Origin: Bacilli bacterium
Lineage (GTDB): Bacteria > Bacillota_I > Bacilli_A > RF39 > UBA660
Length of the DNA stretch: 64,000 nt
Reading direction: 5' to 3'
Assembly: GCA_017410525.1 (NCBI GenBank)
Contig: JAFQQQ010000005.1
Span: 1 to 64,000 of the forward strand
The notes beneath the pieces were generated by a model. The model did no database searches. It had not been told where the DNA came from and worked only from the letters and a program-made list of their open reading frames with translations. Positions 552 to 23,529 of the stretch are shown piece by piece (position 1 is the first letter of the stretch; every line of letters starts with the position of its first letter). Both the position numbers and the translations under genes were made by a program.

Positions 552-580
552 ATTATATCATATTAAACATTTTTTATAAA
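552..580 (-). promoter_or_regulatory. Candidate promoter for the serine hydrolase
   Basis: On the minus strand a perfect TATAAT (552-557) is preceded by 17 bases and a weak TTTATA -35 box (575-580) that overlaps the stop codon of the upstream gene. This suggests the hydrolase is transcribed separately from the transfer operon. Confidence 0.45.
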
Positions 581-1416
581 CCCATCATCTCTCTAACAAC
601 TCTATCAGACATTTTAACTGTACCTACTAACACTAACATTGAGAAAGCTATTTCACTTACATAAGTCCACACCTGATTTATAGCATCTGCAGTTGGATCT
701 ATAGCTGGTGGACTAGACGCAAATAAAGAAAATATAATACAGGCGAGTACAATAATAGCCCCTTCCAAACAAACTGCACTATAAGATTTAATAAAACTTA
801 CACCCACCTGTTGGGTAGTATCAGACGCAAATGTAGATAATGGTATCGGTGATATAGCAGTATAAAGATATAATTTAAAGAATCTTCCATATACTGTTAA
901 AATCATTATGAAAGATAATACAGTTATTAAAAGACTACCTATAAGCGTGACGGCCCAAAGTGGGATACTTTCAAAAAATCCACAATCTTCTATAGCTGTA
1001 ATTATTTCTTGAGGTAATGTAGATTGAGCTACACTACCCAATCCAGCAGAACGCATAATAGTAGATATAACACCTTGAACTATTTTAAATATAGCTTTCA
1101 TTAAATCTAATCCATAAACTACTACTATTCTTGCAAGTCCAAATCTAATTAATAGTTTAAACGCCTGCTCTGGTCTTTTTATTTCTTCTAAAGAACTACT
1201 ACTTTTAACTACACCTATTACAAAAAAAAGGACTAATAAAGCAAGTCCTATTGCTTGAATAGCCCCATAAATATTTGTAATAACATTCCATATTGTTCCA
1301 CCCTTAAAGGTTTCAGGACTCTCTGTTATTAAAGTCCATATTTCAGTTAATTTATCGTTCCAGGTATCTAGTGAGTTATTAAGGTTATTTACAACCCAAT
1401 TACTTAATATAAGCAC
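574..1416 (-). CDS. VirB6/TrbL-like conjugal transfer membrane protein
   Basis: A 280-residue polytopic membrane protein with about six hydrophobic segments (roughly 50-70, 90-110, 155-180, 185-205, 225-250 and 255-275). Size, topology and position next to a small two-helix pilin and a VirD4 ATPase match the VirB6/TrbL channel subunits of Firmicutes ICEs (CD1112-like family). It would form part of the inner-membrane channel of the type IV secretion system. The start is a GTG with an AGGAGGT site six bases upstream. It is probably co-transcribed with the pilin gene 20 bases upstream. Confidence 0.8.
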   Translation of the reverse strand: MLILSNWVVNNLNNSLDTWNDKLTEIWTLITESPETFKGGTIWNVITNIYGAIQAIGLALLVLFFVIGVVKSSSSLEEIKRPEQAFKLLIRFGLARIVVVYGLDLMKAIFKIVQGVISTIMRSAGLGSVAQSTLPQEIITAIEDCGFFESIPLWAVTLIGSLLITVLSFIMILTVYGRFFKLYLYTAISPIPLSTFASDTTQQVGVSFIKSYSAVCLEGAIIVLACIIFSLFASSPPAIDPTADAINQVWTYVSEIAFSMLVLVGTVKMSDRVVREMMGL

Positions 1417-1436
1417 TATAACACCTCCTAAATATA

Positions 1437-1742
1437 TTAAATTATTGCATTAATAATTTCTTTTGAAAAGGTCATTATAACTCCACCTACAAAAGCTACT
1501 ACACCACTAGCTCTTTGTGATGGATCTTGACTCTTAAAAGACATACCTATTTGAAATACACTATAACCTAAAACAATCATACCTACAGCTCTTAAAGCTC
1601 CAAATATAAAATCTGATAAATTATTTATAACTGCAATAGGATCATCGGCTGCATAAGCTATAGCGCTTGTTCCTATAGTACAAACTAATACAAATATAAT
1701 ACACATATAAATTTTAAATATTTTCTTTTTCTTCTTTTCCAT
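1437..1742 (-). CDS. VirB2/TrbC-like conjugative pilin subunit
   Basis: A 101-residue protein with a basic N-terminus, a signal peptide ending near A-Y-A-A (about residue 31) and two further hydrophobic helices (about 45-62 and 78-98) separated by a short charged loop. This is the pattern of VirB2/TrbC pilins and of the Maff2-type small membrane proteins that sit between VirD4 and VirB6 in Firmicutes ICEs. Its start lies 29 bases inside the 3' end of the coupling-protein gene, suggesting translational coupling. The assignment rests on topology and context, not on a diagnostic motif. Confidence 0.7.
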   Translation of the reverse strand: MEKKKKKIFKIYMCIIFVLVCTIGTSAIAYAADDPIAVINNLSDFIFGALRAVGMIVLGYSVFQIGMSFKSQDPSQRASGVVAFVGGVIMTFSKEIINAII

Positions 1743-3543: not shown

Positions 3544-3728
3544 CTAACCTCTATAAATTTACGAAAACCTTTTTTCTCTGGTGCATTAATAACTTTTAAC
3601 ATTAATTCTTCTATTGGTCCTGTTTCGTGTTGAAGCTTTAAATTTTTATTTCTAAATTCATTTAAAGCATTTATTAATATACCGTGTTCATACTTATCTA
3701 ACTGAACTACTTTTACTCCTTCTTTCAT
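3540..3728 (-). CDS. Small conserved transfer-operon protein, function unknown
   Basis: A 62-residue soluble protein that overlaps the coupling-protein start by four bases. The segment DKYEHGILINALNEFRNK followed by a predicted helix and a basic tail resembles small proteins that accompany VirD4/PcfB in Firmicutes conjugative elements, but no domain is recognisable. Position and overlap argue that it is real and translated with the coupling protein. Confidence 0.65.
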   Translation of the reverse strand: MKEGVKVVQLDKYEHGILINALNEFRNKNLKLQHETGPIEELMLKVINAPEKKGFRKFIEVR

Positions 3729-3745
3729 TTTATCACCTCATTTTT

Positions 3746-4009
3746 CTAAATACCATAATAAATTTTTATAGCTGCTATTGATATTTCATCAGTAGTATAT
3801 CCTGATAATTCCATCATTTTTTCAAAATCTAGTTCTAACTCTATTGCTAACTTTTTTAATATTAATATATTAGGTTTCTTTCTTTCACCTTTTTCTATTT
3901 TAGAAATTGTATTATTATCTACGCCCGTTCTTCTAGTTAATTCTCTTTGGGAGATTTTCTTATTTAATCTAGCTTCTTTTACTAGAGTTGCTAATGATAT
4001 ATTATTCAT
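3746..4009 (-). CDS. XRE-family (Cro/CI-type) DNA-binding protein
   Basis: An 87-residue single-domain regulator. Residues about 10-60 form a typical HTH_3 fold, with ISQRELTRRTGVDNNTISKIEKG covering the turn-helix-recognition helix. It lies between the coupling-protein genes and the PcfB gene and has an adjacent AAGG-type ribosome binding site, so it is probably made from the transfer operon and may feed back on it. The target operator is unknown. Confidence 0.85.
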   Translation of the reverse strand: MNNISLATLVKEARLNKKISQRELTRRTGVDNNTISKIEKGERKKPNILILKKLAIELELDFEKMMELSGYTTDEISIAAIKIYYGI

Positions 4010-4015
4010 ATAAAA

Positions 4016-4561
4016 CTACCTTTCCATATCTCTACTATTAGATTTAAAATAATCTTCCATATTAAATCCACTTGTTTCAGCTTGTACTTTAGCATCATAT
4101 TTTTGTGATGCCTTTATAACATCTTTTTGTATTTCAGGATTATCTTTTAACTCATTAAAAGCACCTACTATATCATCACTCAAAAAATGAAAATTCTTTT
4201 TATTTTCTTTTTGAAATCTTCCTATACAATCATAAGTCATAGTCATAGCTATTTGCTCATCTATACGTAGATCATTAGGTTTTAAATTCATATCCATACA
4301 AAGTAATGCTTGATAGAAATACTTTTCATCTTCCTTCTTCAAAGCATTTAATTGAGTAAACATTATATTAAGGAATTGCTTACTTGTTATATCAGCCATA
4401 TATTCTTCTCTAACTCTACCTAGTATTTTCTCATAATGAGATGGTGGTACTTTTGTTGGTGTATCAGTTTCTGGATTGATATACTCATAAGTCATATCAC
4501 TTATATACTTACTCATATCCTTTTCTTTCAATTGTACAAAATCATCATATTGTTTTCTCAT
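4016..4561 (-). CDS. Hypothetical transfer-operon protein
   Basis: A 181-residue soluble, highly charged and mainly helical protein with no signal peptide or membrane segment. I do not recognise a family. It sits four bases downstream of the PcfB-like gene and six bases upstream of the XRE gene with an AAGGAAAG ribosome binding site, which argues that it is a functional member of the transfer operon, possibly a relaxosome accessory factor (inference). Confidence 0.7.
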   Translation of the reverse strand: MRKQYDDFVQLKEKDMSKYISDMTYEYINPETDTPTKVPPSHYEKILGRVREEYMADITSKQFLNIMFTQLNALKKEDEKYFYQALLCMDMNLKPNDLRIDEQIAMTMTYDCIGRFQKENKKNFHFLSDDIVGAFNELKDNPEIQKDVIKASQKYDAKVQAETSGFNMEDYFKSNSRDMER

Positions 4562-4564
4562 AAA

Positions 4565-5236
4565 TTATCTTTCCTTCCTCTTTGATTTTTTTATTTTCTT
4601 ACTTTTATTAACTTTAGCTTCTTTTGTTTGTTGTTTAGTTTTTTTCTTTTCTATCTTTTCAGATTCTATTTTTGCTTCCTCTAACTTTTTCTTTACAGAA
4701 TCTTTTACTTTAGAAGAATCCACCTTTTTGTTCTCTAATAAATGCTCTGACAGAGGGTCTTTTACTGTTAGAGCTTTCTTCGGGTTTACTTTCCCTTTGG
4801 ATACCTCTTTTTTGCTTTCTAAAGACTTTGTTATCTCATTTTTAATAGTTAATGTATCTACAGTAGAAAGTTTAAATTTTTCAACTATTCTATTAATCTT
4901 TCCTGCGTCTTCTGCCTTTACCATAACATCAACTATACTGTTTGGCTCTTTATTTTTCTTATCCACAATTACAGCATAAAGAATTCCATATCTTTTTGCT
5001 TCTTGAGTAAATTTTGCTAAATCTTCTTTTTTTACAGGGAATACCTTTAATTCTTTTCCAGATTTTAAAAGATTATCTAATCTTATCTTTCCTTTTGTTT
5101 TATGCTTACTATTAGCATAAGCATATAAAGCTACAGCAAAATTTTTAGCTCCTGCTCCCGTAATTTTTGCTGTCATTTCTATTCCTTGCAAATACATTCT
5201 AATTACTGCATCTGCAGCTTCACTTGAACTATTCAT
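4565..5236 (-). CDS. PcfB-like (DUF3801) relaxosome/coupling accessory protein
   Basis: A 223-residue protein whose N-terminal 130 residues (a helical start, then AGAKNFAVALYAYA and a small alpha/beta domain ending near KFKLSTVDT) match the PcfB/DUF3801 family found with Firmicutes relaxases and VirD4 proteins. The C-terminal 90 residues are almost entirely lysine and glutamate and look disordered. In pCF10, PcfB helps load the relaxase onto the coupling protein (family knowledge). The start ATG overlaps the relaxase stop in an ATGA arrangement, so the two are translationally coupled. Confidence 0.82.
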   Translation of the reverse strand: MNSSSEAADAVIRMYLQGIEMTAKITGAGAKNFAVALYAYANSKHKTKGKIRLDNLLKSGKELKVFPVKKEDLAKFTQEAKRYGILYAVIVDKKNKEPNSIVDVMVKAEDAGKINRIVEKFKLSTVDTLTIKNEITKSLESKKEVSKGKVNPKKALTVKDPLSEHLLENKKVDSSKVKDSVKKKLEEAKIESEKIEKKKTKQQTKEAKVNKSKKIKKSKRKER

Positions 5237-6567
5237 AACTTCTTTTCTCCTTTCTCTTTATTAATTTTTTCATACTCATCTATATTTTTATTTATAGAAT
5301 TTATCCTATCATTAATACCTTCACATAATTTAACTTCTTCTCTTAAAGTTTTTATATCAGCATTAATAACATTAATTTCTTTTATTATTTCTAATTTTTC
5401 TTCAGTTGTATCCGTAGTCTTATGCTTATACCATAAGTGATTTCTTTTATCCATAAGATTTTTTAACAACTCTTTTTTTTCATTTCTAAATTTATTAAAT
5501 TCTACTAATGTTTTCAAATTATATTTATCTAACAAAATAACCTCTTTACCTATAGTTTCCATTTTAGATACATCAGCTCTTATACTAGCTGGTAAATATT
5601 TTCTAGGTTGTTTAAAAGGTAATTCATTTAATAGATAGCAATAATACAAATATAAAGCATAAATACCTTTTACTTTCTTTTTATTATAACTATTTATAAA
5701 AGGTTTATTTTTTAAATTCATAGCTTCTATAAAAGGAATTCTAGTAGCTTGTTCTACTACTATTCTTTCTTTTAATCTTTCTATACTATAATCACTTCCA
5801 AAACATCTTTCAATTCTAATATTTTTTTTATAATTCTTTTTTCTAACACTAATTTTATTTCCTCTGTAGGTTATATCATAATTTAATTTACCCATTATAT
5901 TTTCAAAGTCGGATAAATTATATGCTTGTCCTATAGCAAAGTCTATATCCTTTTTTGTTAATGTATAATAATTATCTTTCTTAATATGCCTATCTAAATA
6001 ATTACTATAATTAATACCACTCTTACATTTTTTTTCTTCTAATACACTAATGCCATACTCTTGACAAATACTATCAGACAAATGTCTTAACTCTGCATAA
6101 CTTTCTCTTTTATCATAATATCTTTTGCCATCTACAAAAGATACAGAATTTACAACAAAATGATTATGAGTTATTTTAGTATTTGTATGAGTAGATACGA
6201 TTGCTTCAAATCTATCTCCCCACATCTCTTGAGCTAGTTTAACACCTATTTCGTGCGCTACTTCTGGTGATACCTCATTTTTCTTAAAAGATTGAAAAGA
6301 GTGAAATGCAAGTATTCCACCCTTTTTGTTAAATCTTTCTTTTGTAAGCATCATATCTTCGTACGCAGTTTCAGGAGTACAATTAATACCTGTTATTAGT
6401 GATTGCTCCTCCGTAGTAAAATCCATTTCTTCATATTCCTTAAAAGTATGAAGACTATAATACATATCTTTATTAGCATTTTCTCTTTTAGTCTTTTCTA
6501 TATTCATAACATAATCTAGCACGTGATCTAACCTACTACTTACTTTCCATATAGCTGTAGTTGCCAT
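5233..6567 (-). CDS. Relaxase/mobilization nuclease (MobA/VirD2, MOBP type)
   Basis: This 444-residue protein would nick oriT and carry the DNA strand to the recipient. A candidate catalytic tyrosine lies in HVLDYVMNIEKT (Tyr19), and the metal-binding triad is HTNTKITHNHFVVN (His127, His134, His136), typical of PF03432. The C-terminal half is basic and coiled. I chose the ATG at 6567 because it follows GGAGGT by five bases; an upstream in-frame TTG at 6582 overlaps that site. A terminator hairpin lies directly upstream, so transcription into the gene is either terminated or regulated there. Confidence 0.93.
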   Translation of the reverse strand: MATTAIWKVSSRLDHVLDYVMNIEKTKRENANKDMYYSLHTFKEYEEMDFTTEEQSLITGINCTPETAYEDMMLTKERFNKKGGILAFHSFQSFKKNEVSPEVAHEIGVKLAQEMWGDRFEAIVSTHTNTKITHNHFVVNSVSFVDGKRYYDKRESYAELRHLSDSICQEYGISVLEEKKCKSGINYSNYLDRHIKKDNYYTLTKKDIDFAIGQAYNLSDFENIMGKLNYDITYRGNKISVRKKNYKKNIRIERCFGSDYSIERLKERIVVEQATRIPFIEAMNLKNKPFINSYNKKKVKGIYALYLYYCYLLNELPFKQPRKYLPASIRADVSKMETIGKEVILLDKYNLKTLVEFNKFRNEKKELLKNLMDKRNHLWYKHKTTDTTEEKLEIIKEINVINADIKTLREEVKLCEGINDRINSINKNIDEYEKINKEKGEKKL

Positions 6568-6579
6568 AAATACCTCCAA

Positions 6580-6613
6580 CAAAAAAAGAATCTAACTATT
6601 AATTAGATTCTTG
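6580..6613 (-). terminator. Rho-independent terminator upstream of the relaxase
   Basis: On the minus strand a 10-bp stem (AAGAATCTAA pairing with TTAGATTCTT) with a six-base loop is followed by seven T residues. It ends only a few bases before the relaxase ribosome binding site. Confidence 0.85.
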
Positions 6614-8260: not shown

Positions 8261-8748
8261 TCTCCTTTTATACAAAATATTCCATCATATTCTTCGTTTT
8301 CATCTTCAAAAAGTTCACTAATATCAAGTTCATCTGAAAGATTTTCTTCTGTTTCACATACATTAAATTGTATTAATTCATCATTGTAATCACCAAAAAT
8401 CTTATTTTTCTTTATAAACTCATAAACATTTTTATATGCCTCTTTAGGTGAATATGCTTTTACCAAAAATAAATCTTCTTTTTTGCATTGTGCTTTTACT
8501 TTATAGTTTTTTAAACTATTATTATCTAAATATCCAGCTGTTTGTAATAATTGTACAAAATCTATATCCAATTCATTACAAATTTTAATTAAAAGGACCA
8601 TATTATAATTAGTCCTCATACCATTTTCTATTCTAGTTATTTCTGTATGCCCTATACCAACTAGACTTGCTAACTGTCTTTGAGACATACCACTTTCTAA
8701 TCTTTTTTCTTTTATTATTTCTGCAATTTTTAAATAATTATATTTCAT
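8257..8748 (-). CDS. XRE-family transcriptional regulator
   Basis: A 163-residue protein. Residues about 8-65 form an HTH_3 domain (GMSQRQLASLVGIGHTEITR within it). The C-terminal 90 residues are acidic and end in a Glu/Asp-rich segment, perhaps a small sensing or dimer domain. The ATG at 8748 was chosen because it follows AGGAGA and lies just after the primase-like gene stop; the longer in-frame version starts inside that gene. It may repress element functions, with the inverted repeat at 8238-8260 a possible operator (inference). Confidence 0.85.
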   Translation of the reverse strand: MKYNYLKIAEIIKEKRLESGMSQRQLASLVGIGHTEITRIENGMRTNYNMVLLIKICNELDIDFVQLLQTAGYLDNNSLKNYKVKAQCKKEDLFLVKAYSPKEAYKNVYEFIKKNKIFGDYNDELIQFNVCETEENLSDELDISELFEDENEEYDGIFCIKGD

Positions 8749-8749
8749 T

Positions 8750-9697
8750 CTATCTCTCCTTCTCTTTTTTTTTACAATATTGTTTTTGTAGATAATCATT
8801 AAAATCTTTTCCTATTTTAGGAGGGTCATTTAATATTTCATATCTATTTTTTAATTTATTTATTATTGCTTGTGTAGCTATAATCCCTGCTTCATCATTA
8901 TCTAAATGTAAAACAATCCTATTTATATTAGGATTGTTATTTAGATACAAGTTTAAAGCTAAAGGAACTTTGCTATCCTCTAAATTTTTTGCAGGTTGAT
9001 ATACTCCTGCCAATGAAATTAAATTTTCATTTTGCCACTCTTTATTTTCTTTTTTTAATATAGTTGCATAAGATAATAAATCTATTGCACTTTCAAATAA
9101 ATGAATAGTATTATTTTCTTTTTCTGATATTAATTTAAAAGAAAAAGCCTTGTGGCTTCCATAAACTTCTTGCATAAATCTACTTTTATTTGAGGCTCTT
9201 TTCATAGCATATCTAGGTTCTCCCTTTGGATCATATCCTACAAATACTACATTATGAAAATCATTTTCCTCATATATCATATCTTTATCTATGCACTCTT
9301 TTATAATATCTATATCAATACCTCTACTAACAAGATAACTAATAATTCTATCATTATTTTTATATCTTTCAGGTAGTATTAATTTTGCGTTTAAATCTTT
9401 CTTGAATTTATTTTCTTGAATATCTAATTCAGATATAGGAATTTTAGTTAATACCTTCATAGCTGATTTAAATGATAAATCTTTTACATTCATTAAATAA
9501 CTTAAAGCACTCCTACCCCCTACACCTTTTGAAAACCAATACCACATCCCATTACTTATTTTCAAACTATCGTGTGATCTAGTAGTATAATTATTGATTC
9601 CTACTTTTACTAATTCTTCGGGTTCATAATTTATTAAATAGGTTAATACATCTATTTCATTTGCCTGTTTAATTTGTTCAGGTGTAAAAAGTTTCAT
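8750..9697 (-). CDS. DUF3991/Toprim-domain primase-like protein
   Basis: A 315-residue protein. The N-terminal part contains the primase zinc-less signature region WYWFSKGVGGRSALSYLM (residues 52-69, DUF3991). The Toprim domain shows the catalytic Glu in FESAID (Glu202) and the DxD motif in HLDNDEAG (Asp266, Asp268). Such proteins prime the complementary strand of transferred or rolling-circle replicated ICE DNA (family knowledge). It forms an operon with the small gene upstream and the regulator downstream. Confidence 0.85.
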   Translation of the reverse strand: MKLFTPEQIKQANEIDVLTYLINYEPEELVKVGINNYTTRSHDSLKISNGMWYWFSKGVGGRSALSYLMNVKDLSFKSAMKVLTKIPISELDIQENKFKKDLNAKLILPERYKNNDRIISYLVSRGIDIDIIKECIDKDMIYEENDFHNVVFVGYDPKGEPRYAMKRASNKSRFMQEVYGSHKAFSFKLISEKENNTIHLFESAIDLLSYATILKKENKEWQNENLISLAGVYQPAKNLEDSKVPLALNLYLNNNPNINRIVLHLDNDEAGIIATQAIINKLKNRYEILNDPPKIGKDFNDYLQKQYCKKKEKER

Positions 9698-9700
9698 AAA

Positions 9701-10024
9701 TTATCTTACCCTATCTTTTATTTTGTCTTTATATAGTTCTTCTAATCCAGGTATTAATCTATCGCCTATACCTTCATAGGTACTACTATCAAAAAGCATT
9801 ATTTCTGTTAAATAATTTAATTGGTCGCTATCCTTCATTTCTTCAAAGAAATCTTTTAAATTATTTATACCTTCTTTTATTTCTAAAATTTTGTTTATAT
9901 TGCTATAATCAAAATCTCTTATATTATATTTTTTCTTTAGAAAAAAACAAAAATCATAATTATCTAATTGCTGTAAAGTACTGACAATCTCTTTAATTAG
10001 TGATTTTTCAATTTTATTACTCAT
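9701..10024 (-). CDS. Hypothetical ICE protein (107 residues)
   Basis: A soluble acidic helical protein without recognisable domains. Two ATG codons compete; the one at 10024 lies seven bases after GGAG, whereas the one at 10030 is only one base away, so I use 10024. The stop is four bases before the primase-like gene, so the two are probably co-translated. Confidence 0.65.
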   Translation of the reverse strand: MSNKIEKSLIKEIVSTLQQLDNYDFCFFLKKKYNIRDFDYSNINKILEIKEGINNLKDFFEEMKDSDQLNYLTEIMLFDSSTYEGIGDRLIPGLEELYKDKIKDRVR

Positions 10025-10044
10025 TAACATTCTCCTTTCAGATA

Positions 10045-10079
10045 TAAAAAAAGCAATAGATTTTTTAGGTCTATTGCTA
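10045..10079 (-). terminator. Rho-independent terminator
   Basis: A 9-bp stem (AGCAATAGA with TCTATTGCT) and seven T residues on the minus strand overlap the stop codon of the 108-residue gene and end just before the next ribosome binding site. Confidence 0.85.
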
Positions 10080-10403
10080 TTTTTTTAATATATCTAATTT
10101 TTTAAAATATAAATATGCCTCTCGTCCCCCTAGTAAGAATAAAGCTTCGTCTTCAAATTCTTTTATCTTTTCTTGTAATTCTATAAATCTAATTATATCT
10201 TTACAATCATCTAAACTTAAATCCATAGCTTTTCTTCCATAGAATATTTCTTCTACCTTCGGGTTTGATTCAAGTAGTTTATCTTTTTCTAATAAGGTCT
10301 CTTTATACCCCATATTAGTAGTTTGAAGCACATACTGAATACGAGAAAAATACTCATAAAAATTATCTTTAGAATAGTCGTAAAAAGAATCTTCAAAGTC
10401 CAT
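10077..10403 (-). CDS. Hypothetical ICE protein (108 residues)
   Basis: A soluble acidic protein with an aromatic N-terminus and two long helices. AAGGAGG lies five bases before the ATG. Similar small proteins of unknown role occur in Tn1549-like elements near the SSB and primase genes, but I cannot name a family with confidence. It ends in its own terminator. Confidence 0.65.
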   Translation of the reverse strand: MDFEDSFYDYSKDNFYEYFSRIQYVLQTTNMGYKETLLEKDKLLESNPKVEEIFYGRKAMDLSLDDCKDIIRFIELQEKIKEFEDEALFLLGGREAYLYFKKLDILKK

Positions 10404-10463
10404 CCATTGCCTCCTTTTATAGCTCTATTTTATAAAATATTTAAAAGTATGACAATTGTGCGA

Positions 10464-10799
10464 TTATTTTTTTTGCACCCTTGCTTTTTGCTGTAGCTTT
10501 TCTCTTACTTTTAACAATACTGAATAATATTGTGTTTCATACTTAATATCATTCATATCTATAAAACAATATATAAAATCAATTACTTCATCTATAAAGA
10601 ATCTTATTTCTACTAACTCTATTTCATCATCAGTTATATAAGGTACACTATATTTTAATAACTTATCTTTTATTCTAGTAAATTTATTTTCTTTATCATT
10701 ATGCTTTTTCTCACCAATAGAAAAGAATTCAACTAATTTATTGAATTCTTCTATAGTAATTATAACTCTTATTGGTGGTCTTTTAGATTGATAAGCCAT
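10464..10799 (-). CDS. Hypothetical ICE protein (111 residues)
   Basis: A soluble protein with a predicted alpha/beta N-terminus (PIRVIITIEEFNKLVEFF) and a basic C-terminus ending QKARVQKK. No family is recognised. It begins two bases after the ssb stop with a CAAGG site within the ssb 3' end, so it is co-transcribed with ssb. Confidence 0.65.
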   Translation of the reverse strand: MAYQSKRPPIRVIITIEEFNKLVEFFSIGEKKHNDKENKFTRIKDKLLKYSVPYITDDEIELVEIRFFIDEVIDFIYCFIDMNDIKYETQYYSVLLKVREKLQQKARVQKK

Positions 10800-10800
10800 T

Positions 10801-11163
10801 TTACCTTGAATAGTCTTGTTCTTGTTCTTGGTTTTCTTTTGATTTACTAGATAAAAATGTCACTTTTTCTGCAACTATATTCATAAATGTTTTTTTATCA
10901 CCATTTTCATCTTCTCTAGTATTTGTTTGAATTCTACCTTTAACGCCTACAAGATCACCCTTTTTACAATATTCAACTGTACTCTCTGCTATCCCCTTCC
11001 ATAAAACGCAATCAACGAAATCCGTGTCATAAACTCCTGTTTCTACATTTTTGAAAGCTCTTGGTACAGCCAATGTTATATTGGATACCTTTGTTCCATT
11101 TTCTAATTCCTTTATTTCAGGTTCTCTTACTATCCTTCCTACTAAAACTGCTTGATTTAACAT
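10801..11163 (-). CDS. ssb: Single-stranded DNA-binding protein
   Basis: A 120-residue OB-fold SSB: MLNQAVLVGRIVREPEIKELENGT, an internal FVDCVLWKGIAE and GDLVGVKGRIQT are all characteristic. It would protect transferred single strands and support element replication. The C-terminal tail after the OB fold is only about 15 residues and ends E-Q-D-Y-S-R, so it lacks the acidic hydrophobic tip (DDDIPF type) that recruits partner proteins in chromosomal SSBs. Shortened tails are common in mobile-element SSBs. Confidence 0.95.
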   Translation of the reverse strand: MLNQAVLVGRIVREPEIKELENGTKVSNITLAVPRAFKNVETGVYDTDFVDCVLWKGIAESTVEYCKKGDLVGVKGRIQTNTREDENGDKKTFMNIVAEKVTFLSSKSKENQEQEQDYSR

Positions 11164-11180
11164 ATTATCACAATCCTTTC

Positions 11181-11822
11181 TTATATTACTTCTATTAATT
11201 CATTAATAAATACAATTTGTTTTTCTTCATCTTGACTACAAGTTATTAAAGTTAATATAGTTTTATTTGAATAATTCTTTATTGGTACTATTCCTGTTTT
11301 TTGTACCTCATAAGATTCAATCATTTTATAGATATATTTTTTGTTTTTATAATATATATAAGATTCATCACCACTTGATAACTTATACAAATTTTTGAAA
11401 AAAGCTATTCTTCCACTTCCAGAATGTCCTGCTATTATTAAATTTCCATTAACTACATCAGGATAATCTGAATCTTTTAATACTTGAATATTTTTAGATA
11501 CTGTATTATTTTTATCGTTCATATCTAAAAAACCCCTCTTAAAATTTATAGAGGGGATTTCTAGTACGCCAATATATTCATATAAAGGTTCTGAACTTTC
11601 TTTAGATTCTTCTTTTTCTTCAATGATTTCTTCATTTGTTATATCTTCTAAAGCTTCTTCTTGCTTTTCAAAATATATATCAACTGCCTCATCATCTAAT
11701 TTATTTTCACGACTAATTCTATACTGATAAACACCTATTAATAAAATTCCAATTATAATAAAAGAAATGCCAAATATTTTATATTGACATTTCATTTTAC
11801 TAACGTTTTTTTTGATTCCCAT
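11181..11822 (-). CDS. Sortase dedicated to the ICE adhesin
   Basis: A 213-residue membrane-anchored sortase with a signal-anchor helix at about 17-34 and a charged linker followed by the sortase barrel. The catalytic His is in AGHSGSG (His133) and Cys in TLITC (Cys195). The usual third residue, an arginine six to eight positions after Cys, is replaced by lysine (Lys201 in EKQIVFI). It overlaps the adhesin stop by 23 bases and should attach that protein to the wall. The start at 11822 has only a distant GGAG; an internal ATG at 11795 is an alternative. Confidence 0.9.
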   Translation of the reverse strand: MGIKKNVSKMKCQYKIFGISFIIIGILLIGVYQYRISRENKLDDEAVDIYFEKQEEALEDITNEEIIEEKEESKESSEPLYEYIGVLEIPSINFKRGFLDMNDKNNTVSKNIQVLKDSDYPDVVNGNLIIAGHSGSGRIAFFKNLYKLSSGDESYIYYKNKKYIYKMIESYEVQKTGIVPIKNYSNKTILTLITCSQDEEKQIVFINELIEVI

Positions 11823-14800
11823 AAAGTAATATACACACTCCTATCAATGCTATAGCTAAAGAGATAATATAAACTTTATAAGGTTGTTTAGTTAATGTAT
11901 CTGGTACTTCAACTATAACTTTTTCATTTGTCATTTTTGCTTTTACTATTTCTCCATCTTCTTTTATTTCAAAATAGATTTTTTCTGTATTTAGTATATA
12001 ATCTTCTGAAGCTGTTTCTTTTTCTAGGATATAAAATTTTCCATATTTTAACCCTTCTACTATTAACATACCTTTATCATCTGTCTTACCACTAAATACT
12101 AATTCATCCTTTTCTGTATATACTTCTATTAAAGTATTTGGGATTGGTTCACTTGTAGCTAGATCTACTTTAGTAAATTCTAATGTTCCTTCTATTAATT
12201 TATTAGTCATTTCACACTTAACAATTTGTCCGTCCTCTAGTATTTCAAAATACATTTTTTCAGTATTTAATACATAATTTGGAGTTGCTGTTTCGCGTTC
12301 TATTAAATAGAATTTTCCATATTTTATATTATCTATTACTATTTTACCTTCGCTATCAGTTTTACCACTAAATACTAACTCATCCTTTTCTGTATATACT
12401 TCTATTAAGGTATTTGGGATTGGTTCACTTGTAGATAAATCCAACTTTGTGAATTCTAATTTGCCTGTTATAGGTTTATTAGTCATTGTAGCTTTTACTA
12501 CTTCTTTATTTTCCTTAATCTCAAAATATACCTTTTCATCAGATAATACATAACCTGTGGCTGCATCCTTTTCCTTGATATAAAATTTGCCTATTGGGAG
12601 ATTCTTTAGTGTTATAGAACCTTCTTTATCTGTTTTACCACTAAATATTAATTCATCCTTTTCTGTATAAATTTCTATCAAAGTATTTGGGATTGGCTCT
12701 CCACTTACTAGGTCTGTTTTTGTAAATTCCAAATCACCTTTCTTTAAATGATTTAGAGTTTCATATTTTTCATATACTATAGCTGTTTTATTATCTTTTG
12801 CAGTAAATTCAAAATGATATTCTTTTGTATCTAATACCATATTATCTTTTGTTTCTACTTCTACTAAAAAATACTTTCCTAAAGGAATTTTCTTGCTTAT
12901 AGCATAACCTTTGCTATCACTTACTAGAGTTTCTACTAAATCACCTTTATTATAGTAAAGATAATTACCATCAGCTGATTTAATATCTTCATCTGCATAA
13001 AGGTTAAATTTAATACCTTCTAATTTTGTTTCTCCATATTTAAAAGTGTTATCTTCTATTATAAAAGTTTCACCACTTTTAACTATTTCAACTTGTCCTT
13101 TAATTGGTGTATTATTATATTCTACAACTACGAAAGCTCCATAAGTTGTATAATAATACTCTGTTTCTTCTCCTATAGTAAAATCTACACCATCTTCATT
13201 TATTAGATAGTTATTTGGACTCTTGATTTCTTCAATTCTATAATTTCCAGCTTCCAACTTTAAATAAGTTGTAGATACACCATTTTTATCAGTTTTAAAT
13301 TTATCATAAACTTTACCACCAACATATTGACTAACATATTGCTTTTTATCTTTATTATAAATTTTAAAAGTTGTATCTGCTAGTTCTATAGTCTTACCTG
13401 TTTCACTATCTTTTTTATAAATTTGAAGATATGCAGATATTTTATTATTTAAGATATTATAATATTGTTCTTTTTCAGAGTTTTCATCAACTATTACAAA
13501 GAAATCATAAATTTTTTCAAATCCTGTCGTACTATTAACTTGGTGAAATTTCCAAACTCCATAGGGAATATTTATAGACGCATAACCGTTTTTATCTGTA
13601 GTTATTGTATCGTATAATGTTCCATCAGGATAATATATTTCAAAATTAATATTAGCTTCAGCATTTAAGAAAGTTGTATTTCCATCTACATAATCATATT
13701 GTTTTAATATACTTATATAGTTTTTAATAACTTTTTCTTTTACTACTGTTGTATAATCTGTATTTTGAAATATAAATTGTCCGTGAATAACACTATTTAA
13801 TTCATATCCCTTTGGAGGTTCAGATTCAACTATAGTATAATGCGCGTATGGCAAATACTTACTTATAGCAGTACAATCATCTCCAATCACTAGAGTATCT
13901 ACTACATTTTTATCAGCATCTAATATATTGAATTTAGCTCCAACTAAAGTAGCTTGTCCTAATGGTGTACAAGAATTAGTTTCGCTATCAATTTTTTTAA
14001 TTTTAATTCTTCCTTGAATAACTTTTTCTATAGAAGTTATCTCTAATGTTTTATCACTTGTTATATTTGCTTTATAAACAGTAGTATCTAAATTATAACC
14101 AACTCCAGGTTCAACCTCACTTACGGTATAATTTCCATAAGGTAGAGATTTGGAAGTTGCAGAACAATCATCACCTATAGTTAAAGTATCCACTACTTTA
14201 TTAGTATGGTCTTTAATCTCATACTTTGCGCCTATTAAAGATCCCTCACCACTTGCTTTGCAAGAATTAGTGACGCTATCTTTTTTTATTACCTTAATTT
14301 TTCCTTTTATTACAGCATCTTCAACTGTTATATTAACTGTATCTCCCGATTCAATAGTTGCTGTATAAACAGTATCACTTAATTTATATCCATTTGGAGC
14401 AGAAATCTCTTTGATTTTATAAGTTCCTGTTGGGAGATTATCAGTTGTAGCTGTATTATCACTTCCTATAGTTAGTGTAGCTACTACTTTATTACTTGAA
14501 TCAACTACTTGGTATTTAGCGCCTATTAAGTTAGCTTGTCCTAAAGGAGTAGTTGTTTTATTCTCTGAATCTATTTTAGTAATTTTAATTTTTCCACCTA
14601 TTACATTAAATCTTACATTAGTAGTCATTGGGTCGGGTGAACCAAATTCCATTAATTTTTGATAACTACCATTATAAAAAACAACAGAAGGTGAATAAGA
14701 ATTTGTTATAGTTCTAGTTAAATCTACAGTAGCAGAACCTACTTTATCAGCTTTAACAATTAATTTGTTTCCACTTATATTAGCAGAACAATTTGTACAC

Positions 14801-15399
14801 CCAGATACAGAATAATTATTTATTACATTATTTGTATCAGTATATTCTACTGATTTACCTACTACTTGAGTATAATTTCCATTTTGAAAACTTGGCAATG
14901 TTGTTATACCATTTACTAGACTTCTTATTTCAGCTCTCTCTGATTCTATTAAAGCTGAATCTCCAGATGTAATATAGCAACATCCAGGGGATATTGTATT
15001 CCATATTTCTAACTGTGTAGCTAAATACCAGCTATCATCACTATGATTACCATATCCATAACCATAATAACTTAATAATTTTAATTTTCTAATAGTTTCA
15101 CTATTTAATTTAGAAATTGTTTCATCAGAAGTTGAATTATAACTTCCTTCAGAAAAATCTAAATAAGTTAATCCAGGTTCAATACAATAAACGGGATCAC
15201 TATTAGACCATTTCATAATCTTTGTAGCATTAACTCCAGAAGCTCCCATTAAAGACCACTTAAATCTTACATTACCATTTCCATCTCTAACTGCTCTTGA
15301 ATAAAAAGATTCTGTAGCTGCGCTTACATTGCTATTGTTAATTAATAACAAAATAAAAATACTACAAATCAATGTAGCATATTTAAAAATCTTTTTCAA
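11800..15399 (-). CDS. Thioester-domain adhesin with CnaB repeats and VPDTL anchor
   Basis: A 1,199-residue surface protein starting with TTG behind GAGGT. A signal peptide ends near residue 27. Residues 40-180 look like a thioester domain: the reactive Cys is in VYCIEPG (Cys72) and the partner Gln in LATQLEIW (Gln129), a chemistry that lets adhesins bind host amines covalently. About nine CnaB/SpaA-like beta domains follow (from about 265 to 1160), the last three nearly identical. The C-terminus has the sorting-like motif VPDTL, a hydrophobic helix and a basic tail. It is cargo of the ICE and is followed by its own sortase. Confidence 0.92.
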   Translation of the reverse strand: MKKIFKYATLICSIFILLLINNSNVSAATESFYSRAVRDGNGNVRFKWSLMGASGVNATKIMKWSNSDPVYCIEPGLTYLDFSEGSYNSTSDETISKLNSETIRKLKLLSYYGYGYGNHSDDSWYLATQLEIWNTISPGCCYITSGDSALIESERAEIRSLVNGITTLPSFQNGNYTQVVGKSVEYTDTNNVINNYSVSGCTNCSANISGNKLIVKADKVGSATVDLTRTITNSYSPSVVFYNGSYQKLMEFGSPDPMTTNVRFNVIGGKIKITKIDSENKTTTPLGQANLIGAKYQVVDSSNKVVATLTIGSDNTATTDNLPTGTYKIKEISAPNGYKLSDTVYTATIESGDTVNITVEDAVIKGKIKVIKKDSVTNSCKASGEGSLIGAKYEIKDHTNKVVDTLTIGDDCSATSKSLPYGNYTVSEVEPGVGYNLDTTVYKANITSDKTLEITSIEKVIQGRIKIKKIDSETNSCTPLGQATLVGAKFNILDADKNVVDTLVIGDDCTAISKYLPYAHYTIVESEPPKGYELNSVIHGQFIFQNTDYTTVVKEKVIKNYISILKQYDYVDGNTTFLNAEANINFEIYYPDGTLYDTITTDKNGYASINIPYGVWKFHQVNSTTGFEKIYDFFVIVDENSEKEQYYNILNNKISAYLQIYKKDSETGKTIELADTTFKIYNKDKKQYVSQYVGGKVYDKFKTDKNGVSTTYLKLEAGNYRIEEIKSPNNYLINEDGVDFTIGEETEYYYTTYGAFVVVEYNNTPIKGQVEIVKSGETFIIEDNTFKYGETKLEGIKFNLYADEDIKSADGNYLYYNKGDLVETLVSDSKGYAISKKIPLGKYFLVEVETKDNMVLDTKEYHFEFTAKDNKTAIVYEKYETLNHLKKGDLEFTKTDLVSGEPIPNTLIEIYTEKDELIFSGKTDKEGSITLKNLPIGKFYIKEKDAATGYVLSDEKVYFEIKENKEVVKATMTNKPITGKLEFTKLDLSTSEPIPNTLIEVYTEKDELVFSGKTDSEGKIVIDNIKYGKFYLIERETATPNYVLNTEKMYFEILEDGQIVKCEMTNKLIEGTLEFTKVDLATSEPIPNTLIEVYTEKDELVFSGKTDDKGMLIVEGLKYGKFYILEKETASEDYILNTEKIYFEIKEDGEIVKAKMTNEKVIVEVPDTLTKQPYKVYIISLAIALIGVCILLYGNQKKR
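11930..12740 (-). repeat. Three tandem CnaB-domain coding repeats
   Basis: The 3' part of the adhesin gene holds three direct repeats with a period of about 273-276 bases (equivalent points at 12091, 12367 and 12640). The encoded units share PIPNTLIE(V/I)YTEKDEL and FSGKTD and differ at scattered positions, most strongly in the middle of each domain. This indicates recent duplication, and unit number could vary by recombination. Confidence 0.85.
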
Positions 15400-18139: not shown

Positions 18140-18155
18140 GGTACTCACTCTTCTG
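18140..18155. other. Inferred right junction of the ICE with the chromosome
   Basis: The ATPase reading frame matches the family through V-A-V-P-E and then reads E-stop instead of the invariant G, so host homology ends at about 18148-18151. The minus-strand junction reads CCAGAAGAGTGAGTACC. GA dinucleotides at the break would suit a large serine recombinase with a GA core, as in Tn5397/Tn4451 (inference). The other half of the gene should lie beyond the left edge. Confidence 0.6.
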
Positions 18156-19014
18156 GTACAGCAACTATTATTATAGTTACACATAAAGTAAGTGCGTATA
18201 AAATATGACCTGTTATTATAGGAAAGTTAGTAACCATCTCTTTTATTAAATTTAAATCAAAATTATTATTTATAACAATTACTTTAAAAAGATAGGAAAA
18301 AAATACTAAAAAAGCACCTACATACCCTATCTTACTTATAAATTTAGCAAGTTCTCTAAGTCTTTTCTTTAAAGGTGTTTCTGGTTGCTTTTCTTGGAGT
18401 TCTAAAGCAATTTTACCATAAAAAGTATTCTCTCCCACATTAGTAACTTTCATTAAAGCACTGTTACTATAAACAACACTACCCTTATACACTCTATTCT
18501 TATCATTTATTAGATTCATATTTATTATAGATTCTTTATATGCTTCTTTTGTTTCTCCATTTAAACTAGATTCATCTACACTTATCTTCCCTTTAACAAT
18601 TATTCCATCTGCCGGTATTTTATCTCCTGTTTCTAAATTAACTATATCATTAACAACAACTTCTCCTACTGGTGTTTCAATCTTCTTACCATTTCTTATT
18701 ACCTTACAAGAAACTTTACTTACTTCTTCTTGTAGTTTTTCAAACGCTTTCTCACTTCCATACTCTGATATTGTAGATATTAAGGAAGCAAGAAGTATAG
18801 CGATTACTATACCTATAGTTTCATACCAATCAAAACTTCTAAATAAAAACACGGTTTTTATAGCAAGTGCGATTAACAATATTTTTATTATAGGATCTCC
18901 TAAAGTTCCTATAAGTAATTTGAAGAAACTATCTTTTTTAGTCTTTTTCAGTTCATTACTACCATATTTTTTTCTATTTATAATTACTTCATTATCAGTT
19001 AGTCCATTATACAT
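18145..19014 (-). pseudogene. 5' fragment of a calcium-type P-type ATPase, interrupted by the ICE
   Basis: The 289 residues correspond to the first third of a P2-type cation ATPase: the N-terminal cytoplasmic segment, the first two membrane helices, the actuator domain with GDKIPADG and the loop SSLNGET (usual TGE) and helices 3-4. The frame stops at VAVPEE, where the family has VPEG(L/P); the phosphorylation motif DKTGT, nucleotide domain and C-terminal helices are missing, so it cannot pump. The ATG at 19014 follows GGAGG. The truncation point is the main evidence for the element boundary. Confidence 0.85.
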
Positions 19015-19058
19015 AAGAATCCTCCACACTAAAATATATGGACAACTTCTATTTTTAT

Positions 19059-20033: not shown

Positions 20034-21560
20034 CTAAATGTATTCTATGTATTTAGGGTTATTTTTAATAAGTTCTTTAACAAATATAGAAGGATTTTTA
20101 TTATCTACTAAAAGATATACATCACTCTTAGTACGAGTTAGGGCTACATAAAAAAGTCTTCTTTCTTCTTCATATGGATATATATCAATATTATTATTAA
20201 CAAACTTTAAAATCTTATCATCCTTTATTTTATTAGGTATACCAAGCATATCGTCTTTCAAATTAATAATAACTACGCACTCTTCTTCTAATCCTTTAGA
20301 AGCATGTATAGTTAAATATCTAATATTTGCTTTATTATATTGTATGTGATTGTCTTTATCTAATTTAAAATATTTATCTATATCAAAATTATTTCTGCCT
20401 AAAATCAATATATTTTTATGGTTTTCTATAACCCTATCTAATAACTTTCTTAAATTATCTCCATACATAATTTTAATAGGTTTAGAAAGTCTTTTACTAC
20501 TTCTAAGCTTTTTATATAATTGTCTTTTATTTTTCATGATAAACTTACCGGCTACATTTATTAACTCTTGACTATTTCTATAAGTATTATTTATTTTTAA
20601 TACTTTTGTATAACCAAAATACTTTTTAAAATTTAAAAACATATTTAAATTACAACCGTTAAATCTATAAATAGATTGATAATCATCCCCAACACATATT
20701 ATCTTAGCACACGTCTTATTTATTATTTCCTTTAAAAATAAATACCTTATATAAGATGTATCTTGATATTCATCTACTATTATATATTTATAATTTTTTA
20801 TACCGTTTTCTTTAACATACTTAGTAGCAAGTACAATCATATCATTAAAATCAATACTATTAGTACTCTTTAATTCTTCTTCATATAAAATATAAATATC
20901 TATAATAATTCTAAGTAGTTCTTTATTTCCTTTCATATTTAAAAAATGATTTATATTATAATTATTAGTCTTGAATAGATTTATAAAAGTAATTATAAGC
21001 CTTTTAAGATTCTCTAACTCTTTACTCTTTAATATTTTTTTATAACTAATATCTATTTTACATAGTATCTTTTTTATTTTAATTTTTAAATTATTATTAT
21101 ATAGTGCATAATAAAAATATTCATCTACTATGTATCTTAATAAATTAGTATCACCTATTTTATATTTATTATATTTTAATATTTCTAAGGCTAGTTTATG
21201 AAAAGTATAAACCTTTATATTATAGTTATAATTCTTCTTTATATTTCTTTCTAAGTTTTCCGATGCATCTCTAGTAAAAGATATACAAAGTATTTCTTGT
21301 TCTTTAATACCCTTTCTTTCTATTAAATATCTAATCTTACCTACCATAGTAAGACTTTTACCACTACCAGCACCTGCAACTATTAAATTAGATCTTTCAT
21401 CTGTTATAACAGCTATTCTTTGTTCTTTATCTAATGAATAACCATTTATATTTGATAAAAGATTATGACTTTCTATTAATTCCTTTTTTATATATTTTTT
21501 ATTTAATCTATTTATTTTTATCCTACCTAATTTTCTTTGAGAATTATCTATATAGTTCAT
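20034..21560 (-). CDS. UvrD/Rep-type superfamily 1 DNA helicase
   Basis: A 508-residue ATP-dependent helicase, shorter than UvrD or PcrA (about 700). Motifs seen in order are the Q-type DKEQRIAV, Walker A AGAGSGKS, Walker B IIVDEYQDTS, motif III VGDDYQSIYRFNG, motif V LTIHASKGLE and motif VI YVALTRTK. The 2B insertion is reduced. The ATG at 21560 was chosen because it follows AGGAGG; 28 extra residues upstream in frame lack support. It lies behind the ClpX-like gene but is separated from it by a terminator. Confidence 0.92.
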   Translation of the reverse strand: MNYIDNSQRKLGRIKINRLNKKYIKKELIESHNLLSNINGYSLDKEQRIAVITDERSNLIVAGAGSGKSLTMVGKIRYLIERKGIKEQEILCISFTRDASENLERNIKKNYNYNIKVYTFHKLALEILKYNKYKIGDTNLLRYIVDEYFYYALYNNNLKIKIKKILCKIDISYKKILKSKELENLKRLIITFINLFKTNNYNINHFLNMKGNKELLRIIIDIYILYEEELKSTNSIDFNDMIVLATKYVKENGIKNYKYIIVDEYQDTSYIRYLFLKEIINKTCAKIICVGDDYQSIYRFNGCNLNMFLNFKKYFGYTKVLKINNTYRNSQELINVAGKFIMKNKRQLYKKLRSSKRLSKPIKIMYGDNLRKLLDRVIENHKNILILGRNNFDIDKYFKLDKDNHIQYNKANIRYLTIHASKGLEEECVVIINLKDDMLGIPNKIKDDKILKFVNNNIDIYPYEEERRLFYVALTRTKSDVYLLVDNKNPSIFVKELIKNNPKYIEYI

Positions 21561-21611
21561 AACACCTCCTATATATATCATTCTACAAAACTTTTCAATT
21601 TCCTTTTTTAT

Positions 21612-21650
21612 AAAAAAAAATATTGTGTTTTTAATATTCAACACAATATT
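21612..21650 (-). terminator. Rho-independent terminator of the ClpX-like gene
   Basis: An 11-bp stem (AATATTGTGTT with AACACAATATT) and nine T residues on the minus strand overlap the stop codon and end about 40 bases before the helicase ribosome binding site. Confidence 0.88.
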
Positions 21651-23244
21651 CTTTATTATCTGTAACTGTTTTCTTAGTTAATTTAATGGACTTAACTTTA
21701 GGATTAGTAAGTACTTCATCATATACATATCTTAAAGTTCTTTTTACTTCTTTATTTAATTTACGAACACCAAGTTTTTTGCTATACCCTTTGTCAGCAA
21801 CAGCATTTAAATAACCAACTGTAGCATATAAATTTATTCCTCTTTGAGCAAAGTCTTGTTGTGCGATTTTCCATTGACTAATCTTTGACTCTTTTAATAT
21901 TTTTAATACAGTTTTATGAGTAAGTTCATCTGTTCCAGTAAATTCACCAACCCTACCAACAAATTCAGGCCCCATCCAACCTATAAAATCATCTTCATCA
22001 AGCCTTACTTTTTGTTCTTTTTCTTCATTAACAGCACCGAAACCAATGGTGTTTTTTTTGTTTTGTTTCTTTTGTTCGTATAATTCATCAAAAGAACCCA
22101 TACAAATTACTGTTAAATTAGATGTATCAAACATTATTTTATTGCTACTTGATTTTGAAACATCTACTTCTATAACGTCTCTATCTAATATTTTCAAAAG
22201 TTCATGCAATACTGCTTTTCCAAAACCTTTATCATCCTGATAAGTAACAAGTTTATCTATTTCATCTAAAATGAGAATTCCGTGTTGGGCTTTTTCTTGA
22301 TCTCCGTTAGCTGATCTAATCAAACCTAAAAGAAGGTCTGGTACCTCTTTACCATAATATCCTGCTTTTGTATAATCCGGACAGTTTGCAGCAAAGAAAG
22401 GAATGTCTAATTCTTTAGCAACCACTCTTACCATCTCTGTTTTACCCGTACCACTTGGTCCAGATATTAAAATATGTGATTTATTTCTATAATTATTAGA
22501 AGTTTGATTTACTGCTATAGTTCTAGTTAAATTATAAACTGCTTCATCTTGCCCTACAATATTTGATAAAACATTTTGCCTTAATTTAGCTAAGTCAAAC
22601 CCAGCAGATTCTTCTCTTTTTAAAACATAATTAGATTTTTTTGTCCTTTTTGATTCTTGTTCTTCTACTAAATTGCTACCACTTTTAATTTTGTTTTCAA
22701 CTACTTCTTTTATATAATTTCCAGCCTCAATTAATTTATCTATGTAATTTCTAATTTCTTCTACTGTTTGATATTCTTTAAGTTCTTTTAAAGCTTGTAA
22801 GCTAAAAATAAATTTTTCATTATTTTCTGGATCGAATTGAATGTGATCTTCTTCTAAATCGTCATAATCCTCATTTTGACACATATTATTTATGTATTTT
22901 TCTATATTGTAGAAATCAAATTCTATTACTTTAGTTGTTTGTTCTAACTCATCATAATATCCTAAAAAACAACAATCTAAAAAATTAGAAAGAAATTCAT
23001 CTAGTATTTCTGATTCAGTTAATTGATTCCCATATGGTTTTTTTAATTCTTCCATAGTTGCTGGGCAACAAAAATATCTCTCACAATCTGCACTGTTATC
23101 TTTCATAAAGCAATATTCAAAACCACGTTCATCTATAAATATTTCATCATATTCTAAATAATTTCCCTTAATTAAATTAATAGGTCTAAAAACAACTCTA
23201 CCTTCACCTAAATCTATTTTTTGTAAATGTATTGCATAATGCAT
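21631..23244 (-). CDS. ClpX-like AAA+ unfoldase with an atypical N-terminal domain
   Basis: A 537-residue protein. The C-terminal 320 residues are a ClpX AAA+ module: VGQDEAV (230-236), Walker A GPSGTGKT (262-269), pore-loop-like AGYYGKEV (Gly295-Gly298), Walker B GILILDEIDK (322-331), the ClpP-docking loop NTIGFG (398-403) and arginine-finger EFVGR (Arg431). The first 210 residues replace the ClpX zinc domain with an unrelated Cys-containing region (CERYFCC, LDCCF) and acidic linker. It probably feeds a distinct substrate class to ClpP (inference). Confidence 0.87.
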   Translation of the reverse strand: MHYAIHLQKIDLGEGRVVFRPINLIKGNYLEYDEIFIDERGFEYCFMKDNSADCERYFCCPATMEELKKPYGNQLTESEILDEFLSNFLDCCFLGYYDELEQTTKVIEFDFYNIEKYINNMCQNEDYDDLEEDHIQFDPENNEKFIFSLQALKELKEYQTVEEIRNYIDKLIEAGNYIKEVVENKIKSGSNLVEEQESKRTKKSNYVLKREESAGFDLAKLRQNVLSNIVGQDEAVYNLTRTIAVNQTSNNYRNKSHILISGPSGTGKTEMVRVVAKELDIPFFAANCPDYTKAGYYGKEVPDLLLGLIRSANGDQEKAQHGILILDEIDKLVTYQDDKGFGKAVLHELLKILDRDVIEVDVSKSSSNKIMFDTSNLTVICMGSFDELYEQKKQNKKNTIGFGAVNEEKEQKVRLDEDDFIGWMGPEFVGRVGEFTGTDELTHKTVLKILKESKISQWKIAQQDFAQRGINLYATVGYLNAVADKGYSKKLGVRKLNKEVKRTLRYVYDEVLTNPKVKSIKLTKKTVTDNKEYCVEY

Positions 23245-23259
23245 AAAAATCCCCCAAAA

Positions 23260-23529
23260 CTACTTATTTGTATTATTATAATAATTATACTCTGATAAAA
23301 TTTGCGATACCCATTCTAAGTCTTCTAGCACTTCATAAGAATCATTTAAACAATTTTCTATATCATACATAAGCTCATTAATATTAGTATATTTCTCTAT
23401 GTTAATATTATATTTATTCAATATTGATATTTGCTCATCTGATATATAAATATTATTATGTTTTTTCAAAAAATTTCTATCTGTACCAACTATTTCATCA
23501 ATATTTAAGTTAAATTCATCAATAATCAT
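23260..23529 (-). CDS. Hypothetical small acidic protein
   Basis: An 89-residue, acidic, mostly helical protein ending in ISEYNYYNNTNK-like sequence (actual ILSEYNYYNN). No domain is recognised. The ATG at 23529 follows AAAGGTGA, and a TATAAT at 23548-23553 lies just upstream. It ends 15 bases before the ClpX-like gene, so it may be co-expressed and could act as an adaptor (speculative). Confidence 0.65.
   Translation of the reverse strand: MIIDEFNLNIDEIVGTDRNFLKKHNNIYISDEQISILNKYNINIEKYTNINELMYDIENCLNDSYEVLEDLEWVSQILSEYNYYNNTNK

Follow-up and report, generated by a model that had tools for sequence, protein, structure and literature searches.

A ClpX-derived AAA+ protein family, mostly with its own N-terminal domain, in an order of small-genome Bacilli

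The window analysed here is a stretch of 64,000 nucleotides from a Bacilli bacterium. On its minus strand, an open reading frame of 537 residues with an ATG start encodes an AAA+ protein related to ClpX; the gene is real and correctly placed. Related loci in other genomes are designated by L numbers, genomes by G numbers. The features of the gene and its immediate neighbours are as follows.

21631–23244, minus strand: probable ClpX-derived AAA+ unfoldase, 537 aa, whole gene (open reading frame, ClpX similarity, purifying selection, relatives in 56 of 146 genomes of the order)
21634–22599, minus strand: ClpX-type AAA+ module, residues 216–537 (Pfam, NCBIfam, PDB, alignment; dN/dS 0.09–0.21)
22351–22362, minus strand: predicted pore loop GYYG, residues 295–298 (aligned with GYVG of E. 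coli ClpX)
22039–22047, minus strand: IGF tripeptide, residues 400–402, putative ClpP docking loop (alignment and motif tests)
22966–23244, minus strand: N-terminal domain, residues 1–93, predicted as five strands followed by two helices (35-row alignment, profile matches, AlphaFold2 model)
22600–22965, minus strand: variable acidic linker, residues ~94–215 (dN/dS for residues 101–215 of 0.41 against L008 and 0.44 against L009; low model confidence)
23260–23529, minus strand: small acidic protein, 89 aa when counted from the ATG that its relatives share (next to the ClpX-like gene in four of four close loci)
20034–21644, minus strand: UvrD/helicase IV-like SF1 helicase, encoded directly downstream (likewise the neighbour in L008, L009 and L046)

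The Pfam families AAA and AAA_2 matched within residues 254–432, and the AAA+ region spans approximately residues 218–512, with ClpX as the top match among NCBIfam models. The best PDB sequence matches were likewise ClpX chains (E 4e-33, query residues 235–509). The scores stayed below half of both curated ClpX cut-offs, at 147.5 bits for TIGR00382 (cut-off 370.75) and 158.6 bits for NF003745 (cut-off 359); the HslU model TIGR00390 gave 44.4 bits (cut-off 362.45) and the ClpA model TIGR02639 gave 67.8 bits (cut-off 993.15). Because the protein has a single AAA+ module, it does not share the two-module architecture of ClpI, ClpC and ClpA. In an alignment with E. coli ClpX, Walker A (GPSGTGKT), GYYG and Walker B (GILILDEIDK) lined up, as did the IGF within NTIGFG, PEFVGR and GVRK; we take the latter two to be the Arg finger and sensor 2. 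The core motifs of ClpX (Walker A, Walker B, sensor and Arg finger) are present, together with a GYVG-type pore loop 1 and a docking tripeptide of the IGF/LGF type, and the alignment bears out the sequence-only reading, which had pointed to GYYG and IGF in the C-terminal module. At the place of the RKH loop, this single alignment with E. coli ClpX shows SSS, which makes ssrA-type substrates doubtful.

Compared with the 83% identical copy at L008, the dN/dS ratio was 0.15 for the whole gene and 0.09 for the AAA part; compared with the 66% identical copy at L009, the values were 0.27 and 0.16. The ratio of 0.15 against an 83% identical relative signifies that the gene is more than a chance reading frame, and these values indicate purifying selection. 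A full-length model of the protein was poor (pLDDT 39; the AlphaFold alignment held three sequences).

The source genome (1.04 Mb, 10 contigs, 95% complete) was searched for clpX and clpP, as the sequence-only reading had proposed. clpP was found in a single copy. No canonical clpX was detected in this genome; the ClpX model retrieved the window gene, well under the cut-off, and two weaker AAA matches. None of the 146 genomes of the order had a ClpX above the cut-off. With the same search, ClpX was recovered in 10 of 14 control genomes, and it exceeded the cut-off in 55 of the 296 genomes searched from the class, all 55 outside the window's family. Most order-wide searches (relatives, ClpX, family profile) scored 9–11 candidates per genome, the ClpX search of 296 class genomes five and the search of 392 phylum genomes three, so further copies may be missed. 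The gene had been called a ClpX paralogue. With no canonical ClpX found in the source genome or elsewhere among the 146, this term fails, and the gene is better described as the ClpX relative of this lineage. The genome also encodes a 771-aa double-AAA Clp protein with an IGF tripeptide in its second half; we call it ClpC-like, though it falls below the cut-off of every curated model. ClpP matches were present in 129 of the 146 genomes.

The sequence-only reading had further proposed that the zinc-binding domain is replaced by about 210 residues with Cys pairs and an acidic linker. The replacement and the linker stand, the acidic stretch lying at approximately residues 120–145, but the Cys pairs do not. 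Of the six cysteines C45, C54, C59, C60, C90 and C91, C59 alone persists in the two close relatives, and a C4 zinc motif is absent from the first 200 aa of all 66 family open reading frames; we rejected the N-terminal cysteines as zinc ligands. Nor was there a zinc-domain match for any of 35 aligned N-domains or among the best 25 of 30 Pfam matches of the whole protein. A sole clpX with a zinc-type N-domain would have spoken against a new domain. The gene is the sole clpX-type gene found in the genome, but its N-domain is not zinc-binding.

The alignment of 35 N-domains had a mean column identity of 17%, with one residue (G27) conserved above 90%. At E 0.001, the profile built from it recognised 40 of the 66 family loci, comprising 33 of the 35 aligned rows and seven further loci (L059, L065, L069, L080, L082, L090 and L107). 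Across 8052 reading frames, including those of viral loci, every match at this threshold fell within a ClpX-like locus. No Pfam family matched more than one of the 35 N-domains at E 0.1, and the best hit in a PDB sequence search had an E-value of 0.42. Outside the order, one weak match in another family (E 9e-4) appeared by eye to be a lipoprotein-like frame and was set aside. A new N-terminal domain is in this respect upheld. As a family-wide feature it was rejected: 26 of the 66 loci, including L066 and L077 from the profile's own rows, carry N-terminal parts that the profile misses, which weakens a family-wide recognition role. By eye, Sel1-like repeats take the place of the domain in L101 and L102.

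We modelled residues 1–115 with AlphaFold2, a fold prediction having been suggested from the sequence. The mean pLDDT was 72.8, with 73–89 per ten-residue block up to residue 90 and less than 50 from approximately residue 93. The predicted fold is a small beta-rich domain of five strands with two helices. Foldseek returned nothing at E 0.001 in the PDB or among viral models. The best VIA-align match was the 53BP1 Tudor domain (Z 2.6), followed by the PHF1 Tudor and HIV integrase C-terminal domains (Z 2.3–2.5; 42–46 residues, 2.3–2.4 Å), only a hint that the model may be an SH3/Tudor-like barrel. The dN/dS ratio of the N-domain was 0.55–0.58 against L009 (0.58 for residues 1–100) and 0.16 against L008. 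The N-domains of Clp unfoldases serve in recognition; this habit, the position of the domain and its rapid change against L009 suggest a role in substrate recognition.

In a protein search at E 1e-10, relatives of the window protein were found in 56 of the 146 genomes of the order, with up to three per genome. A profile made from 28 members returned the same 56 genomes at E 1e-45 or better, the next genome following at 2e-22. At 1e-10 this profile returned 125 genomes, the 69 beyond the 56 beginning at 2e-22. The weaker matches listed were discarded as further divergent members: they were second segments or modules of family proteins, or frames of 655–795 aa, which we read from their length as probably ClpC-type. 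A 486-aa frame at G095:C33:3910–4728 matches profile positions 4–279 (E 7e-14), although its genome is among those scored as having no member.

Among 392 genomes of the phylum, 28 reached E 1e-45 or better with this profile, seven of the same family and 21 others. In the 21, the match starts at profile position 125 or later, and all frames but one of 245 aa are 396–451 aa long, as in canonical ClpX. The ClpX-like family appears, from these searches, to be so far confined to one order of small-genome Bacilli.

Phylogenetic analysis with HslU as outgroup placed 44 sampled members together (SH-aLRT 99), apart from 35 viral and seven canonical ClpX cores. A more careful tree against canonical ClpX alone united 38 members at 100/100; long branches leave the inner details unsure. 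The viral ClpX-like ATPases (IMG/VR, INPHARED; PHROG 4339) share the ClpX-type core at 28–36% identity. In the 80 IMG/VR loci retained, their matches start no earlier than residue 158 of the window protein, and among the best 10 of 136 from INPHARED no earlier than residue 191. All 35 sampled viral cores fall outside the branch of the window family, and the N-domain profile matched none of the 80 viral loci. A match on a Vescimonas plasmid (81% of the query) was rejected, being annotated as a Clp ATPase behind ctsR and ClpC-type by this setting.

Within genera, the presence of the gene is patchy. In G017, a 49-residue remnant lies after aspS, where G033 and G071 of the same genus carry the gene. 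Eight loci were tested for their neighbours, which are the aspartyl-tRNA synthetase gene aspS (L048, L056, L064 and L082), hisS (L057), miaA (L054), rplS encoding L19 (L061) and, one gene away, mutL (L047). These housekeeping neighbours signify that the eight genes are chromosomal; the setting of the remaining loci was judged by eye.

Could the window gene simply be the ordinary ClpX of a fast-evolving lineage, performing ordinary ClpX work behind a degenerate front end? The search of its genome gave no other ClpX-type gene, the family forms a single clade that joins canonical ClpX, and several members share a chromosomal address beside aspS. Against this, 90 of the 146 genomes have no member even by profile search, so the gene is dispensable, and one genome may hold up to three copies. 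The missing zinc motif in 66 of 66 open reading frames and scores below half of the ClpX cut-offs also speak against it, and we consider this explanation unlikely.

To assess ClpP docking, we examined the segment between sensor 1 and the Arg finger in the 64 members with a usable core. Segments of 32 residues or more were called long and searched for the pattern [ILVMAPCS]-G-[FIYL], both pattern and length limit having been chosen after the motif table was seen. Fifty members have a long segment and 49 of these match the pattern; the fiftieth (L073) has FGF instead, so all 50 are xGF-like. Shuffling the segments (1000 trials) gave 5.2 matches on average and 13 at most, compared with 49 observed, and the motif in long-loop members looks selected. 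The sequence-only reading had judged a ClpP partnership likely, and a single ClpP in the genome, together with a docking-type motif in the window protein and in all long-loop members, supports this by inference.

The other 14 members have segments of 18–28 residues and no docking motif, and not all members would therefore use ClpP through this loop. Most of the 14 still have Walker A/B and a pore loop resembling GYxG. The loop was lost in at least two independent events in a tree that held three of these 14, and the tandem pair of L058 comprises one copy with the loop (8595–10283) and one without (10400–12004). ClpP matches were found in 49 of the 56 genomes with the ClpX-like gene and in 80 of the 90 without (p 0.80). 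The seven ClpX-like genomes without a ClpP match correspond to the same rate as in the rest; the draft genomes are 90–97% complete. A ClpP-independent remodelling chaperone would account for the loop-less members with their otherwise mostly intact motifs, and for the lack of co-occurrence with ClpP. The latter is neutral, as most genomes have ClpP, and the motif persists in the long-loop members, the window protein among them. For the window protein, we regard this alternative as quite improbable.

Four members, all from one genus (g34), have a second AAA module upstream and are 806–859 aa long (L066, 2991–5411; L077, 8123–10564; L087, 9461–12040; L089, 311–2830). The extra module retains a Walker-A-like GK[ST], has D-G or D-N at the catalytic D-E and lacks GYxG. 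Judged by these motifs, it is degenerate at Walker B and the pore loop.

The small acidic protein gene (89–99 aa) ends 15 bp before the ClpX-like gene, confirming the adjacency described from the sequence, and the UvrD-like helicase frame, read at its longest, extends into the end of the ClpX-like gene. L008, L009 and L046 share one gene order with the window: sortase, membrane protein, small acidic protein, ClpX-like protein, UvrD-like helicase and glucosaminidase. The small acidic protein had been suggested as a possible adaptor. Though adjacent in all four close loci, its homologues occur in 66 of the 146 genomes and are equally common with (27 of 56) and without (39 of 90) the ClpX-like gene (p 0.61). 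This distribution argues against a dedicated or obligate adaptor, and we abandoned this proposal. Outside the window's genus, the homologues listed are on other contigs than the ClpX-like genes listed.

In seven loci of other branches, a conserved protein of 105–122 aa starts 1–3 bases after the ClpX-like gene. It is also present in an eighth locus, L100, whose ClpX-like gene has an in-frame stop. The positions of its gene are as follows.

L050: 9127–9480
L058: 8240–8593
L060: 18546–18896
L073: 1–315
L086: 10532–10885
L100: 2335–2691
L101: 7691–8059
L102: 8748–9101

The one member scanned had no Pfam match. The protein accompanies loop-bearing and loop-less ClpX-like proteins alike, and from its sequence context is possibly a better candidate for an adaptor or cofactor than the small acidic protein. 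At L047 (9112–9375), an 87-aa Cys-rich protein is encoded directly downstream of the ClpX-like gene; by eye it resembles a free zinc finger, and it had no Pfam match.

The window also contains conjugation genes (574–6582), including a weak TrbL-like protein, a VirD4/TraG coupling protein (1714–3543) and a MobA/VirD2-type relaxase (5233–6582); a Toprim protein is encoded at 8750–9697. The conjugation genes probably belong to an integrated conjugative element that extends in the direction of the contig start. We set aside the ClpX-like gene as cargo of this element, since its tested relatives adjoin housekeeping genes; yet three of 63 distant loci (L069, L074 and L075) have a homologue of a gene from the conjugative region. 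In L074, the homologue is a VirD4-type gene lying ~4 kb away from the ClpX-like gene; genes of this type are present in 136 of the 146 genomes.

More broadly, the gene could belong to a mobile element or a conflict (defence) system and have no housekeeping role. Such an origin would fit the patchy presence with decayed copies, the fast N-domain in the comparison with L009, the conjugation genes in the same window and the three distant loci. On the other hand, the recognised conjugation genes lie at 0.6–6.6 kb, and the ClpX-like cluster leads into genes shared with L009. The addresses beside aspS, hisS, miaA, rplS or near mutL in the eight tested loci, purely generic AAA matches from PADLOC and an N-domain conserved between the window and L008 are further arguments against it, and a mobile or defence function is in our view highly improbable.

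The explanation we favour, and consider probable, is that the window protein is an unfoldase that arose from ClpX, works mostly with ClpP and has a recognition domain of its own. Its direct basis is the ancestry, the motifs, the conservation of the docking motif, the lack of a canonical ClpX among the genomes searched and the distribution of the family. From these, we infer a hexamer, ClpP binding and substrate choice by the N-domain. A lineage descended from ClpX would have lost the zinc-binding domain and would bear another, fast-changing N-terminal domain. Six subunits would form a ring, in which the N-domain, alone or with further factors, picks substrates. The GYYG loops would draw the chain through the pore, driven by ATP, and the IGF loops would dock the ring on the genome's single ClpP, which would cut the chain. 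Alongside the double-AAA, ClpC-like Clp protein, the genome would thereby have an accessory way of degrading proteins.

As a rule, ClpX is regarded as a single conserved enzyme fronted by one zinc domain. By sequence and tree, it is the nearest known protein to the window family, with which it shares one AAA+ module, Walker A/B, GY.G, an IGF loop, the Arg finger and sensor 2. In contrast to ClpX, the window protein lacks the zinc-binding domain, has another N-terminal domain and no aligned RKH loop, and scores far below the cut-off; in most of the order's genomes, no member of its family was found. Judged by zinc domain, RKH loop and curated score, it does not belong to ClpX proper.

The closest published parallel is ClpI of Actinomycetota, a lineage-restricted class of Clp unfoldases with a variable N-domain and subtypes with and without an LGF/IGF loop, whose authors state that it is the only such group to their knowledge (PMC10149685). 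ClpI is described there as double-ringed and ClpB/ClpC-like (PMC10149685), whereas the window family is ClpX-derived and single-module apart from the four proteins of one genus. Myxococcus xanthus ClpX3 is a ClpX without the Cys-containing N-terminal domain that coexists with two other ClpXs (PMC11423568). The window protein differs from it in having a different N-domain and no canonical ClpX found alongside. Titles and abstracts of the open full-text literature yielded no description of this ClpX family; most subscription papers were outside the scope of the search.

On balance, and with a little more confidence than doubt, we lean towards the following view of the order. These small-genome Bacilli would have given up canonical ClpX, and more than one-third of the genomes would carry members of a rapidly diversifying clade of unfoldases derived from ClpX that is theirs alone, in most cases with an N-domain of its own; ClpP docking would have been dropped at least twice, and one genus would have gained a second, degenerate AAA module. 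If true, this would be, after ClpI, the second Clp class in which some members dock on ClpP and others do not, and the first of ClpX descent. A clade with a swapped front end, a kept or lost ClpP loop and a doubled module would offer natural experiments on the partnership of unfoldase and protease, and would show small-genome bacteria rebuilding their protein quality control.

Two further features of the window were recorded. A 1199-aa surface protein (11800–15399) has a thioester (TED) domain and nine SpaA-like stretches, and is adjoined by a sortase gene at 11181–11822. A 'half' P-type cation ATPase of 294–299 aa is encoded at 18145–19029 in the window, 8760–9644 in L008 and 13592–14491 in L009, presumably ending before the phosphorylation site in all three relatives. 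Its dN/dS of 0.06–0.12 indicates purifying selection, and a ParA gene follows close behind it in the window and in L008.
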